Origin: a virus
DNA length: 49,609 nt
IMG/VR virus record: IMGVR_UViG_3300030012_004328
Span: 1 to 49,609 of that record
Reading direction: 5' to 3' (one strand)
The notes beneath the pieces were generated by a model that saw only the letters and a program-made list of their open reading frames with translations, was not told where the DNA came from and did no database searches. Positions within the stretch are counted from its first letter, which is position 1. Every line of letters begins with the position of its first letter. Shown piece after piece: positions 21,616-48,225 of this stretch. The translations under genes were made by a program, and so were the position numbers.

Positions 21616-22397
21616 TGATATCAATATATACAACAGGTTTTAACCTAGAAAAAATAAACATAAACTTTGATGAAGTTTTTTCTAACTGGCTGGTCTATGC
21701 GAATGAAATAGTTTTGTCTACCTTTCAAGATGAAATAAAAACAACTGTAGACATAATATCTAAAAGTAAATTTTACGACTCGGGAAAAATAAAAGTAGTA
21801 GGACTTAAAGTTGATATAGAGAATGATGTGTATTGGGAAGGTAAACTAAAAAACTTTGCGTTAGAAAACTGCACGAATTCCGTAGTTTTACAGTGCGATT
21901 TAGACGAAAGGGTTTCGGGAGATCCAAAACATTTTGAAGTTTGTCGTAGATCTATATTAGATCATGATTTTTCATGTAGTGTGATGCTACCAACTATGGA
22001 TCTATACGAAGATCTAGATCATTACATAAATTTAGGAAAAAAATGGTATTTACATACCAAAGAGGGAACATTCAGAGGCTCTGTAAATTGGGCTAGAAAA
22101 GAAGATGGGAGCCTTGATCCAGAGAAGAGCGATACTTGCGAGTTAATTGATGCGAAAGGAAATTTAATTCCATGCATAGCAAATGTTGAATATAGCTCAA
22201 ATGATTATCCTAAAATTATTCATTTAGGATATTTAGATTTAGATAAGAAAAATTGCGTAAACGAGTTTTGGGGTAAGATATGGAATCATAGATCATCTGG
22301 CTCATTTGACCCAGAATACAAGATGGAAAAAGTTACATCTGGCGACCCAAGAAAAAAGAAACATAATTTAAGCAAACCTTTGTGGCCCACGCTATGA
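21615..22397 (+). CDS. GT-A-like glycosyltransferase
   Basis: The 260-residue protein contains CTNSVVLQCDLDERVSGDP near residues 86-104. The DLDE matches the DxD(E) metal- and nucleotide-sugar-binding strand of GT-A enzymes. An upstream helix (EGKLKNFALENC) precedes this strand, as is usual. Towards the C-terminus, a His in IIHLGYLDL fits the conserved C-terminal His/Gly strand. Overlaps with both neighbours (one and four bases) place it in the same operon as the other GTs. Confidence 0.55.
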   Translation: MISIYTTGFNLEKININFDEVFSNWLVYANEIVLSTFQDEIKTTVDIISKSKFYDSGKIKVVGLKVDIENDVYWEGKLKNFALENCTNSVVLQCDLDERVSGDPKHFEVCRRSILDHDFSCSVMLPTMDLYEDLDHYINLGKKWYLHTKEGTFRGSVNWARKEDGSLDPEKSDTCELIDAKGNLIPCIANVEYSSNDYPKIIHLGYLDLDKKNCVNEFWGKIWNHRSSGSFDPEYKMEKVTSGDPRKKKHNLSKPLWPTL

Positions 22398-43262: not shown

Positions 43263-43637
43263 ATGAGTATTAGTCCCGTTTTTTCTAGACTAGAAGCCCA
43301 CCCAAAGAAATGGGGTGATGAGCTTTGGATAACCAATAACGAAAAGTATTGTGGGAAGATCCTTCGTTTTAACGAGGGGTCTTCTTTTTCTATGCACTAC
43401 CACGTATTGAAAGAGGAGACTTGGTGTGTAACCAAGGGTAGGCTAAAACTAGAGTATTACGACTTAGAAAAGGCTGATAAGCTTGAGAAAATTCTAGAAG
43501 AGGGAGATGTAGTTCACTTAAATCCTTGTGTCCCACATAAACTTACTGCTCTAGTAGAATCCAGTGTTTTTGAGGTAAGCACTCAGCACTTTAATGACGA
43601 TTCTTACAGAATAGAAAAAGGCACATCTCAAAAATGA
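43263..43637 (+). CDS. Cupin-fold protein (sugar isomerase-like)
   Basis: The 124-residue protein has the two cupin motifs. The first is around MHYHVLKEETWCVTKGRLKL (His-x-His followed by Glu and Gly), and the second is GDVVHLNPCVPHKLTAL. This resembles the metal-binding barrel of type II phosphomannose-isomerase-like and sugar-isomerase cupins. It opens an operon with a heptose kinase, a nucleotidyltransferase, a methyltransferase and an HAD phosphatase, so a sugar-phosphate isomerase role is attractive but unproven. It overlaps the next start by four bases. Confidence 0.65.
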   Translation: MSISPVFSRLEAHPKKWGDELWITNNEKYCGKILRFNEGSSFSMHYHVLKEETWCVTKGRLKLEYYDLEKADKLEKILEEGDVVHLNPCVPHKLTALVESSVFEVSTQHFNDDSYRIEKGTSQK

Positions 43638-44380
43638 AATTTCTAGTAATCGGCGAAACTTGTAGTGACAGATTTTGCTACGGCAAATCGAGCAGATTAT
43701 GTCCAGAAGCCCCAGTCCCTGTATTTGTTCCAGAGAACGGCACTAGCAACTTGGGTATGGCAACTAATGTTTTTAGGAACCTAAAAGCAATAGATAACAA
43801 TTTACACAATGGTAGTCCATATAGAAATGATATGGATCTTTTTACAAATGAAGCCGAGGGCCATAAAACTAGGTATGTTGATTCTCAGTCAAATCAAATG
43901 TTTTTAAGGGTAGACACTGATTCTTACCCTACTTGCAGGGATCTTCCTGATAATATAGAAGATTACGATGCTGTTATTGTCTCTGATTACAATAAGGGTT
44001 TTTTAAGACCTTATCACCTAAAAGAAATTGGTTTCAGGAGCAAACTTTCCTTCTTAGATACAAAGAGAGACTTCAATGTTGATTGGTCAGACAACTTTTC
44101 TTTTATTAAGATAAATGAAAAAGAATACGAAGAAAATGGTTGGAAACATAGAGCAGAAAATGTGCTCGTAACAAAAGCAGAAAAAGGCTGTTGGTATCAA
44201 GATAAAGATTACCCATTGAATAAGCCATCAGAAGTCAGAGATGTATCTGGTGCGGGTGATACATTTTTAGCAGCTTTTTCATACTCTTATACTGCAACCA
44301 AAAACTTAAATACTGCTATACTTTTCGCACAAGATTGTTGCCAAGATGTTATTACAAAAAAGGGTGTTACTACTATATGA
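43634..44380 (+). CDS. Heptose-phosphate kinase-like PfkB protein (HldE N-terminal domain equivalent)
   Basis: The 248-residue protein is a PfkB/ribokinase-fold sugar kinase. Its N-terminal part reads LVIGETCSDRFCYG, then CPEAPVPVF as in HldE; a NQMFLRVDTD strand, YDAVIVSDYNKGFL, FIKINEKEYE and the catalytic-Asp signature DVSGAGDTFLAAF near the C-terminus follow. It is about 70 residues shorter than the kinase half of E. coli HldE, with the middle lid region trimmed. It would phosphorylate heptose-7-phosphate at C1. The start overlaps the cupin stop and the end overlaps the adenylyltransferase start (ATGA). Confidence 0.8.
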   Translation: MKFLVIGETCSDRFCYGKSSRLCPEAPVPVFVPENGTSNLGMATNVFRNLKAIDNNLHNGSPYRNDMDLFTNEAEGHKTRYVDSQSNQMFLRVDTDSYPTCRDLPDNIEDYDAVIVSDYNKGFLRPYHLKEIGFRSKLSFLDTKRDFNVDWSDNFSFIKINEKEYEENGWKHRAENVLVTKAEKGCWYQDKDYPLNKPSEVRDVSGAGDTFLAAFSYSYTATKNLNTAILFAQDCCQDVITKKGVTTI

Positions 44381-44895
44381 AACATAAAAAAATAGTAAGC
44401 TATCAAGAGATTTTGCAAGAGAGGCAGACAGCTAGAGATATAGAAAAGTTTGGTATTAAAAAGTTTTTTATATTCACTAATGGATGCTTTGATTTATTTC
44501 ATGCTGGTCACGCTACTTTATTGAGCGCAATGAAGAACGCTTGTAGCTTAAATTCAAGATTAATAGTTGGCATCAATAGTGATTCTAGTGTTAAATCTTT
44601 GAAGGGAAAAAATAGACCTATAATGAATGCAAAACAAAGAGCTTATATGGTCGCTTGTCATGAATCTGTAGATTATGTATTTACTTTTGATACCAAAACA
44701 GTTGTAAAACAACTTCGTGAATTGCAACCAGATTTTTGGTGCAAGGGAGGTGATTACAATGATGATTCCCTAAAAAAATCAGAACTAAACGCATTCTGGG
44801 AGAACCCAACGGCAGGAGGTATAAAATTTATACCCTTCATAGAAGATATAAGCAGTAGTGATATCATAAAAATCATAAAAGAAAAAAATGACTGA
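44377..44895 (+). CDS. Heptose-1-phosphate nucleotidyltransferase-like (HldE C-terminal domain equivalent)
   Basis: From the ATG at 44377 (ATGA overlap) the protein has 172 residues. It matches the cytidylyltransferase-fold half of HldE: TNGCFDLFHAGHATLL with the HxGH nucleotide-binding motif, LIVGINSDSSVKSLKG, NRPIMNAKQRAYMV, and later the HldE-like WCKGGDYNDD and SSSDIIKII. It would join ADP to heptose-1-phosphate. In E. coli this domain is fused to the kinase; here the two are separate genes, as in HldA/HldC systems. An upstream in-frame ATG inside the kinase gene is less likely. Confidence 0.85.
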   Translation: MKHKKIVSYQEILQERQTARDIEKFGIKKFFIFTNGCFDLFHAGHATLLSAMKNACSLNSRLIVGINSDSSVKSLKGKNRPIMNAKQRAYMVACHESVDYVFTFDTKTVVKQLRELQPDFWCKGGDYNDDSLKKSELNAFWENPTAGGIKFIPFIEDISSSDIIKIIKEKND

Positions 44896-45601
44896 GGAAC
44901 AATTAGAATCAAATCACGAAGAAATCGGCTATTATAGCAATGAAATGCAAGATGTAGCTGCTCTTAAACTACTTAAAAATGCGGATTCACCCACTTTTTT
45001 AGATATAGGGTGTCGTCATCCTGTAGAAATCAATAATACTTTACTCCTTGAGGAGAATGGCTGGTCAGGTATTTGTGTTGATATAGATGATTATTCTGAA
45101 GAATTTAAAGAAAAAAGACAAACTCCTTTTTATCAAATAGATTCTACTAGTGATGAGTTCATAGAGCTTTTAGAAAAACATTTTCCTCAAAAGGTGATAC
45201 ATTATGTGTCACTTGACGTTGATTCTGCAAGTTTACAGACTCTTAAAAACATTTTAAAAAATGGCTTTAAGTTCATATTTATGACTTTTGAACATGACTA
45301 CCATTACGTTAGAACGCATGAATTATGTAATAAATGGCATGGTGGAGATAGAACTATTGATGAAGTTAAGGCTTGCAAGTCTAGCTCCAAGAAGATGTTA
45401 AGCACTTGTGGTTATAAATTATTATTTGAGAATGTATCATTTCATGAAGATTATACAGGTATTATTCCTCATCCTTGGGAAGACTGGTGGATAAATCCTA
45501 TGTGTTTTAAATATGGACATTTAGTAAGACTTGATAATGTATCAGGTAAAAACATGCATTTTAAAGATTGTGTTGATAGGATTGTAATTTCTACATATTA
45601 G
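44888..45601 (+). CDS. FkbM-like SAM-dependent methyltransferase
   Basis: The 237-residue protein has the Rossmann methyltransferase order TFLDIGCRHPVEINNTLLLEE (Gly-rich SAM loop), WSGICVDID (acidic end of strand 2) and a YVSLDVD strand with FKFIFMTFEHDY, as in FkbM-family enzymes that methylate sugars. The C-terminal part is Trp- and His-rich (HPWEDWWINP). It overlaps the nucleotidyltransferase gene by eight bases. Capping of a glycan by O-methylation is a reasonable inference from the operon. Confidence 0.65.
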   Translation: MTEEQLESNHEEIGYYSNEMQDVAALKLLKNADSPTFLDIGCRHPVEINNTLLLEENGWSGICVDIDDYSEEFKEKRQTPFYQIDSTSDEFIELLEKHFPQKVIHYVSLDVDSASLQTLKNILKNGFKFIFMTFEHDYHYVRTHELCNKWHGGDRTIDEVKACKSSSKKMLSTCGYKLLFENVSFHEDYTGIIPHPWEDWWINPMCFKYGHLVRLDNVSGKNMHFKDCVDRIVISTY

Positions 45602-45607
45602 CAAAAC

Positions 45608-45925
45608 ATGAGCACTTACATTGTAGATATTGACGGGACAATCTGCACTCACAAAAGTCCCGAAAACAAATATGAAGATGCCAAGCCACTGAAAGAGAGG
45701 ATAAATTTTTTTAACAAGCTTTACTCTCAAGGTCATCAGATTATTTATTGGACCGCTAGGGGTGGTGCTTCTGGAGTTGATTACTCAGAATTGACAAAGC
45801 AGCAACTTGATGAGTGGGGTGTAAAGAGAACAGAATTAAGAATGAAGAAGCCTTCCTATGATTACTGGATTGATGATAAAGCTCATAATGTTAATGAATT
45901 TTTCAAAGGATACTATTATCATTAG
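45608..45925 (+). CDS. Short HAD-superfamily phosphatase
   Basis: The 105-residue protein has the HAD motifs: DIDGTICT (nucleophile Asp with Asp two residues on), IIYWTARGG (motif II Thr), KKPSYDYWIDDKAHN (Lys and the late Asp pair). It is a minimal cap-less HAD of the type found with capsule and surface-sugar genes. In the heptose pathway the phosphatase GmhB is also an HAD enzyme, so this one could supply that step; GmhB itself is longer (about 190 residues). It follows the methyltransferase gene after six bases. Confidence 0.75.
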   Translation: MSTYIVDIDGTICTHKSPENKYEDAKPLKERINFFNKLYSQGHQIIYWTARGGASGVDYSELTKQQLDEWGVKRTELRMKKPSYDYWIDDKAHNVNEFFKGYYYH

Positions 45926-46511: not shown

Positions 46512-48017
46512 ATGCCACTTCCAGTCCCAAGAAATAATGAGAAAAGAGGCGATTTCGTTAGTCGCTGTGTGTCTAATTTGACCGATAAAGACGAGTTCAA
46601 TGACAATAAGCAGAGAGTTGCTGTCTGTATTAATATTTTTGAGCAAGCAGAATCAAAAGCTTCCGTTGTTACGGGAGAGGGAGATGAAAAAAGTCTTTAT
46701 TTCTCTGATGCAGCTAATGAAAATAAAACTTTAAATAAACCATTTAGAACCCCCAAGGGTCCTAAAAAGTTCTCTGTTTATGTTAAAAATGAAAAGGGCA
46801 ACGTCATTAAGGTTAACTTTGGTGACCCCAATATGGAGATTAAAAGAGATGACCCCAAGCGCAGGAAGGCTTTTAGGGATCGTCATAACTGTGATCAGGC
46901 AAAAGATAAGACTACTCCCAAATACTGGTCTTGTAAAATGTGGGAATCAGGAAAAAGCGTTACTCAGGTAACAAAAGGATCTGCTGAAGACTGGGATGGA
47001 AAAACATTTTTTGACCATGATTCTCTTGTTGAAGAATGTCCTGCTCTCTTGGATTTGGCAGAAGGCGCAAAACGTCCCGGACCCAAAAGCGGAGCACAGA
47101 CACCAGCAGAGCCAAGTGAAAGAAAAAGAGGCTCTAAGCGCAATCCCAAGGGCAGTGCTAAAAAAGGTGGTGGAAAAATTACTTTTAGTGAAAAAACAAC
47201 AAATACTCTAAAAGATAAGGTTAAAAAACATAACGCTAAGTATTCTAGAAAAGTGACCTTGGGCCAGCTTAAGCGTGTTTATCGTCGTGGTGCAGGTGCT
47301 TTTAGCACCTCTCACCGTCCTAACATGTCTCGTCATGGATGGGCTATGGCTAGAGTCAACACTTTCCTTAAAATGATGAGGGGTGGTAAGGTTAAAGAAT
47401 CTTACAGAAAGGCTGACCAAGATATTGCTAAAGCAGCATACAAGAGCAAGAAGGTCTACGGCATGGACATGAGTGATGATGAAAAGACTGTATTTAAGTC
47501 TTATATGAGCCACTGCATGATGAACGATGCTGATATGGTGGACACAAAAGACATGGATATGGATAAAACTATGTCTTCTTGTGCTATGCAGTATAAGAAA
47601 GACAGAGCCATGATGATGGAAACAGATGAGGAGAACAAGGCGCAGCTTACTGAAAAACAGAAAAAACTTCCTCCAGCTCTAAAAAAAGCAATCTTGGAGA
47701 AGATGAGAAAAGAAGGTAAAATCTCCAAGGAGGAAGAAGAAGAGGAGAGCAAGGCTGCCTATCATTATGATAAGAAAAAAAAGAAGTCTGAGGGCAAAAA
47801 GAAAAAGTATTCTTATGGCGCACCTGATGTCAATAAGCACTACTTTGAAACAAAAGAAGAGGCTATGAAAGATGCCAAGAAACTTGGCTTAGACGGCATA
47901 CATACTCACAAAACAGAGGATGGCAAAACTCTATATATGGCTGGGCCAAATCATGAGGCTTTCATGAAGCGTCATAAAGAGGTCATGAAAGAGAAGGAGA
48001 ACTCAAAAAAAAAGTAA
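46512..48017 (+). CDS. Modular virion/head-core-type protein, likely extended by -1 frameshift
   Basis: The 501-residue zero-frame product has modules familiar from phage head-core and maturation proteins. An N-terminal Cys/Asp segment (PVPRNNEKRGDFVSRCVSNL) comes first. A second module reads KFSVYVKNEKGN, VKVNFGDP, KRDDPKRRKAFRDRHNC and YWSCKMW. A Gly/Lys/Ser-rich linker leads to a third with KVTLGQLKRVYRRGAGAFSTSHRP and WAMARVNTFLKMM. A Lys/Glu-rich coiled segment follows. At its end A9-G forms a dnaX-type slippery site followed at once by TAA; a -1 shift would give about 550 residues. Both forms may be made. GTGTAA lies 22 bases upstream of the ATG. Confidence 0.7.
   Translation: MPLPVPRNNEKRGDFVSRCVSNLTDKDEFNDNKQRVAVCINIFEQAESKASVVTGEGDEKSLYFSDAANENKTLNKPFRTPKGPKKFSVYVKNEKGNVIKVNFGDPNMEIKRDDPKRRKAFRDRHNCDQAKDKTTPKYWSCKMWESGKSVTQVTKGSAEDWDGKTFFDHDSLVEECPALLDLAEGAKRPGPKSGAQTPAEPSERKRGSKRNPKGSAKKGGGKITFSEKTTNTLKDKVKKHNAKYSRKVTLGQLKRVYRRGAGAFSTSHRPNMSRHGWAMARVNTFLKMMRGGKVKESYRKADQDIAKAAYKSKKVYGMDMSDDEKTVFKSYMSHCMMNDADMVDTKDMDMDKTMSSCAMQYKKDRAMMMETDEENKAQLTEKQKKLPPALKKAILEKMRKEGKISKEEEEEESKAAYHYDKKKKKSEGKKKKYSYGAPDVNKHYFETKEEAMKDAKKLGLDGIHTHKTEDGKTLYMAGPNHEAFMKRHKEVMKEKENSKKK
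47994..48014 (+). promoter_or_regulatory. -1 frameshift cassette: SD-like stimulator plus A-AAA-AAG slippery site
   Basis: AAGGAG (47994-47999) lies eight bases ahead of A-AAA-AAG (48008-48014) read in the zero frame of the upstream gene, and TAA follows immediately. This is the arrangement of the E. coli dnaX signal, with a Shine-Dalgarno-like stimulator upstream of the same heptamer. No strong downstream hairpin was found by eye. Confidence 0.7.
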
Positions 48018-48163
48018 AGTCTGATAGCAGTCTCTGGGAGAACATAAGAAAGAAAAGAGAGAGAATTAAAAGAGGCTCTGGTGAAAAGATGAGAAAAAAG
48101 GGTGACAAAGGCGCTCCAACTGCTGATCAAATAGAAAGAGCTAAGGGTAAGAATAAAAAATAA
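48008..48163 (+). other. -1-frame C-terminal extension (50 codons)
   Basis: After the slip, the -1 frame stays open for 50 codons to TAA at 48161-48163. The encoded extension is basic and includes SLWENIRKKRERIKRGSG, then GDKGAPTADQIERAKG. It has no usable start codon before a late internal Met, so it is not a stand-alone gene. It reads like a conserved C-terminal module I associate with other phage structural proteins. Confidence 0.65.
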
Positions 48164-48190: not shown

Positions 48191-48225
48191 AATACTGTCA
48201 CTCAAAAGGTGGCAGTATTTTTTTT
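48191..48225 (+). terminator. Rho-independent terminator
   Basis: Eleven paired bases with one G-T wobble (AATACTGTCAC at 48191-48201 and GTGGCAGTATT at 48209-48219) around a 7-base loop are followed by a T-run to 48225. It ends the modular virion gene transcript. The next gene has its own GTGTAA motif at 48269. Confidence 0.88.

Follow-up and report, generated by a model that had tools for sequence, protein, structure and literature searches.

A poly-A run at the 3' end of a marine phage gene as a possible slippage junction to a conserved, out-of-frame C-terminal module

Introduction

A gene of a marine phage ends in a run of nine adenines, and behind it lies a conserved tail in another reading frame. 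Is this tail added to part of the gene's product and, if so, by which kind of recoding? The gene belongs to IMG/VR virus record IMGVR_UViG_3300030012_004328, all 49,609 nt of which were analyzed and are hereafter called the window. C-terminal extension of phage proteins by frameshifting has been described for the coat protein of T3/T7, for Lactobacillus phage A2 and for Listeria phages A118, A500, and PSA, and Ig-like domains are among the extensions (PMC5009743). The Ig-like extensions are reached in frame or by a -1 or +1 shift, a variety attributed to chance landing after recombination (PMC5009743). Slippage on adenine runs is known from bacteria; in T. thermophilus dnaX, slippage on an A9 run gives about 50% short product (PMC1088944), and in C. 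rodentium tssM1, slippage on an A11 run rescues the gene at about 20% (PMC4256274). A sequence-only reading of the window had proposed a dnaX-like, programmed -1 ribosomal frameshift at the end of a virion-type gene, giving 501- and 550-residue forms of one structural protein. Here, we compare the junction with those of related phages and weigh the routes by which the tail could be translated.

Results

The junction and the reading frame behind it

The zero-frame ORF (Table 1) closes with AAC TCA AAA AAA AAG TAA. The elements on which the sequence-only reading was built are all present: the in-frame heptamer, the TAA that immediately follows, an AAGGAG eight bases upstream, and an open -1 frame with no plausible start of its own. 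From the run, the -1 frame stays open up to the TAA at 48161-48163 and encodes KKVKSDSSLWENIRKKRERIKRGSGEKMRKKGDKGAPTADQIERAKGKNKK, for an extended product of 501 + 49 = 550 aa. By itself, an in-frame A_AAA_AAG is unremarkable, as ~10 are found in the 15,775 codons of the window's genes. The A9 run, on the other hand, stands alone: the 49.6 kb contain no other A/T homopolymer of nine or more, whereas a first-order Markov model predicts ~5.7, as if runs of this length were avoided. Other long runs in the window (A8, T8) leave their genes unbroken.

Table 1. Features of the gene and its 3' junction (window positions, or residues of the 501-aa ORF where marked aa).
Feature	Position	Strand	Remarks
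Zero-frame ORF, modular	46512..48017	+	501 aa; MPLPVPRN..DFVSRC..KQRVAVC segment at N-terminus
phrog_7595 region	aa 68-144		PHROG match
DUF5824	aa 237-305		Pfam match
DUF3721-like C-terminal domain	aa 445-476		weak
SD-like AAGGAG	47994..47999	+	8 nt 5' of heptamer; codes Lys-Glu
A9 run, proposed slip site	48005..48013	+	
A_AAA_AAG heptamer, zero frame	48008..48014	+	inside A9 run
Zero-frame stop TAA	48015..48017	+	terminus of 501-aa form; adjoins heptamer
-1 frame extension (phrog_16028)	48014..48163	+	basic LWENIRKKRERIKRGSGEKMRKKGDKGAPT domain; 49 codons + TAA
Intrinsic-terminator-like hairpin with T-run	48191..48225	+	~30 nt 3' of the extension's stop

Three other in-frame A_AAA_AAG heptamers near gene ends, at 22352, 42634, and 44356, were rejected as candidates, leading to short -1 readings or lying in an ordinary start overlap. 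At 44335-44380, a 186-aa ORF is listed with a TTG start; a later ATG that overlaps the upstream stop is the probable start, and the heptamer at 44356 seems coincidental.

Read in the -1 frame, the sequence gives a match (E 1.4e-15) to the small family phrog_16028, which has no assigned function, and the encoded domain is ~90% identical to domains that are fused in other phages. Judged by this match and by the fused homologues, the open -1 frame exceeds what chance would provide. An independent start for the extension was considered and rejected, since the window's extension reaches mid-domain without an ATG, GTG, or TTG, and the split members described below share no conserved start codon. Given the position of the terminator-like hairpin, the extension would occupy the gap from the zero-frame stop to the likely end of the transcript. 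Structure prediction of a fused C-terminus gave a long helix with moderate confidence (pLDDT 72, pTM 0.37), which had no meaningful match among PDB structures, and a sequence search of solved structures likewise returned no match. Queried by tblastn with the domain, cultured-phage records gave no match, probably through low-complexity masking, and the genome collection yielded one weak partial match and no convincing relative. Other phage proteins (L115, L140, L142, and L155; unrelated carriers) have a module of the same LWENI/GSGEKM type close to their start, apparently with its own ATG, and from this distribution the module appears to be mobile between carriers.

The 501-aa ORF also matches phrog_28338. 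Neither this family nor phrog_7595 or DUF5824 has an assigned function, and the locus lies between sugar-metabolism genes and a fibre-like gene; the virion-type, head-core-like label given to the gene by the sequence-only reading was therefore not borne out. The upstream neighbours are of heptose/sugar type and the downstream neighbour is a fibre-like ORF. Window positions 43263-45925 hold a host-like metabolic cluster with cysteine-dioxygenase-like, PfkB/HldE-type kinase, heptose-type adenylyltransferase, and phosphoheptose-isomerase/kinase-like genes. The same kinds of genes lie upstream of the fused gene of a relative, L002.

Fused and domain-less relatives

About 40 distinct relatives carry the domain fused in frame, typically as ...KRHKEILKEKEKSDSSLWEN. 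The nearest full-length relative, L002, is 87% identical over residues 1-498 and has the domain fused; relative to it, an AAG is replaced in the window by AACTCAAAAAAAAAGTAAAG, a net gain of 17 nt that brings in both the stop and the A-run. A single further A would restore the fusion, but since the window has a net gain of 17 nt over the known fused genes, its split did not result from one simple base loss. Other homologues have no domain (L212/L410, L406, and L408), and the terminus of L212/L410, ...MKEKQKKK*, resembles that of the window's short form. In L207/L388, at about 2160, there is a truncated, out-of-frame piece of the module (GDKGAPTPDQIKRAKGK), an apparent loss of the domain.

A second clade with the same layout

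The arrangement recurs in a clade of seven contigs in which an A10 run and a zero-frame stop separate the domain from the gene; five of them need a -1 shift and two a +1/-2 shift. The -1 members (L154, L228, L226 + L231, L233, and L360/L492) have a ten-A run, a short zero-frame tail, a stop, and then the domain in the -1 frame. L226 and L231 were counted once, since they come from one sample, share an identical junction at two contig ends, and are probably one virus. In the +1/-2 members (L358/L518 and L359/L488), where the +1/-2 frame carries the domain, the sequence is GAA AAA AAA AAC GCA AAT AAA TAG. While A_AAA_AAG is in phase in the window and in 5/5 of the -1 relatives, L358 and L359 have A_AAA_AAC. 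The zero-frame stop lies 0-4 codons past the run in all split relatives, and every split member has 9-10 A shortly before a stop. A complete scan of IMG/VR for A8 or longer before SSLWENI returned nine stretches, namely one fused gene (L514/L407) and eight split records, all with A10 and a zero-frame stop.

In a DNA tree of 50 distinct rows and 420 columns, the split rows formed one clade (100/100), with the two +1/-2 rows nested inside the -1 rows at full support. The window fell elsewhere, into a clade of 17 rows (100/99) in which it was the sole split row and all others were fused. These separate positions imply that the poly-A run and the split arose at least twice, and the nesting of the +1/-2 rows implies that the required shift changed at least once. 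By this phylogeny and the comparison with L002, the window's split arose separately, within an otherwise fused clade, via the net 17-nt insertion. The recurrence of the heptamer and of an out-of-frame domain in an independent clade leaves the 501- and 550-residue forms, made by recoding at the junction as had been proposed, as the best reading of the locus.

Selection on the domain and the junction

Along the split clade, the 39-codon domain accumulated 29 parsimony changes, of which 23/29 were at third positions and ~21 were synonymous (binomial P ~2e-9 against neutrality at 20% synonymous), and its pN/pS was ~0.10, compared to 0.09 in fused genes. Together, this bias and the low pN/pS show that the domain is translated in the split clade despite its out-of-frame position and evolves there under protein-level purifying selection. 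The window's own domain is intact, with a pN/pS of 0.04-0.15 against fused homologues, although such selection could predate the split.

Between run and stop, the -1 members read GCG AAG TAA, GCG AAA TAA, or GCA AAA TAG, with the -1 residues altered. Of the changes in this stretch, 3/4 were synonymous when read in the zero frame, TAA to TAG among them, and 0/4 when read in the -1 frame; zero-frame codons and stop are thus preserved among these members, and the short form would seem to be retained as well, insofar as so few sites can tell. Codons of the run itself were no more conserved than other Lys/Glu codons, which are too few to inform on selection.

Discussion

Putative slippage on the run and its competitors

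The reading that we favour, and to which we give slightly less than an even chance, places the recoding junction on the poly-A run, where slippage, most likely of RNA polymerase, adds the tail to a fraction of the protein. Most products would end at the zero-frame TAA with 501 aa. In some transcripts, RNA polymerase would add one A (A9 to A10), and a fraction of products would gain the conserved, basic 49-residue module to reach 550 aa; ribosomes slipping -1 on A_AAA_AAG might help. Since AAG and AAA both encode lysine, the same 550-residue protein, reading ...SKKKVKSDSS, would result from either route. Both the two forms in the window phage and the choice of slipping machine are what we infer from sequence. 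As to its origin, a mobile module probably inserted past the natural end of a gene for a domain-less homologue, in another frame, and was later reached by slippage; a scenario of this kind has been proposed for the Ig-like extensions of phage proteins (PMC5009743).

The closest competitor, in our view unlikely but far from negligible, is a programmed -1 ribosomal frameshift at A_AAA_AAG that, with the help of the SD-like AAGGAG, yields the 550-aa form. The in-phase heptamer of the window and its -1 relatives is canonical, it fits translation alone as well and so counts against slippage, and the 8-nt spacing of AAGGAG in the window is plausible; moreover, A_AAA_AAG ranks in the top three heptamers for shifting in E. 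coli, provided that stimulators are present (PMC4066793). Where stimulators are absent, however, the shift-prone heptamers of E. coli exceed a background of ~0.05% by just 2-10 fold (PMC4066793). The SD-like element is missing from L154, L233, and L360/L492, lies farther upstream in L228/L226, and is present in the fused L002, where it codes for KE; the sequence-only reading had asked whether heptamer, SD-like element, and -1 domain are conserved together, and only the heptamer and the domain are. No clear or stable stem-loop was found at a stimulatory distance downstream (z -0.18 in the window, -0.2 to -1.8 in relatives), and a -1 shift cannot serve the two +1/-2 members. Thus, the heptamer of the dnaX-like model stands while its stimulators do not, and the absence of a stem-loop and of a conserved SD is as expected of homopolymer slippage. 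In a cell-free system, E. coli ribosomes made little product by sliding at A9 or A10, and robust sliding begins at A11 (PMC4363877). A point against slippage by polymerase is that intact genes of the split-clade genomes contain A9 and A10 runs too, at a rate close to or somewhat below expectation, so that the polymerase there may slip little on A9 or such runs may be tolerated. Considering all of this, slippage is favoured over ribosomal -1 shifting, but not strongly.

It is also conceivable, if rather improbable, that the window's split comes from a miscount in assembly or from a lone indel, and that the true or ancestral sequence has A10 and is a plain fusion (...KENSKKKVKSDSSLWEN...). A single added A would re-fuse the gene, the closest homologues (such as L002) are fused, and the window is the lone split row of its clade; furthermore, it is a single contig for which the search gave no near-identical record, and long A-runs are prone to sequencing and replication errors. 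The sequence-only reading had named homologues with the domain fused in the zero frame as a sign of such an error. They do exist, but what separates the window from them is a net insertion of 17 nt and not an indel of 1 nt. In addition, the window's A8 and T8 runs leave their genes intact, and the same layout is conserved across many substitutions in the second clade with its zero-frame stops kept. Finally, the out-of-frame domain might be an untranslated recombination remnant, as the domain-less homologues and the truncated piece in L207/L388 might suggest; we consider this very improbable given the protein-level purifying selection apparent in the split clade and the intact, constrained domain of the window, with the proviso above that the latter constraint may be older than the split.

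Beyond the window, slippage on the A-run would extend to a more general proposition, which we hold more tentatively: through a frame-agnostic poly-A slip junction, at which RNA polymerase would make mRNAs with mixed numbers of A, some copies of the protein may gain a mobile, non-Ig module at their C-terminus; such a junction would have arisen at least twice and withstood a change of the required frame from -1 to +1/-2.

Comparison with known systems and significance

Like the extensions of the T3/A2/PSA type, the window's module is a mobile C-terminal addition to what would be a fraction of the protein, with recoding near the 3' end, and is fused or out of frame across relatives. In contrast to those, it is a short and basic LWENI/GSGEKMRKKG domain rather than an Ig-like one, the junctions share an A9-A10 run but no conserved stimulator, and no head-gene context marks the carrier as a virion protein. 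As in T. thermophilus dnaX and C. rodentium tssM1, there is a sense-strand A run (A9-A11), no requirement for an SD or hairpin, and two length variants; as in tssM1, a stop follows soon after the run, and the longer form would be the product of slippage, as proposed here. Those systems are bacterial and their slippage was proven by transcript or protein analysis, whereas our case is built on comparative genomics; A9 runs also occur within normal genes of the split-clade phages, a further difference. With E. coli dnaX, the window shares the in-frame A_AAA_AAG and an upstream SD-like AAGGAG; however, the shift in dnaX leads to a shorter product and that of the window would lead to a longer one, and here the SD is not conserved and no stem-loop was found. 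In the literature searched, programmed transcriptional slippage was not described for any gene of a tailed phage.

This one phage gene family forms a natural series in which the domain is fused, split by -1, split by +1/-2, or absent, and which allows the rescue of out-of-frame modules by slippage, and selection on the ratio of two forms, to be tested. With this locus, the routes by which phages make protein variants in proportion would come to include a non-Ig domain and, possibly, transcriptional slippage. Gene callers will overlook the extension or label such genes as broken.

In the split-clade genomes, another modular gene (DUF5824 + phrog_7595) also has an A9 run (L535:746-798; L539, - strand; L551, - strand), and in L535 and L539 an A10 run lies 43 nt 3' of that A9 inside an intact frame (GSKKKFGVYVKN). 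The A-runs of this second modular gene are possibly further slip sites, or else a sign of A-run tolerance.
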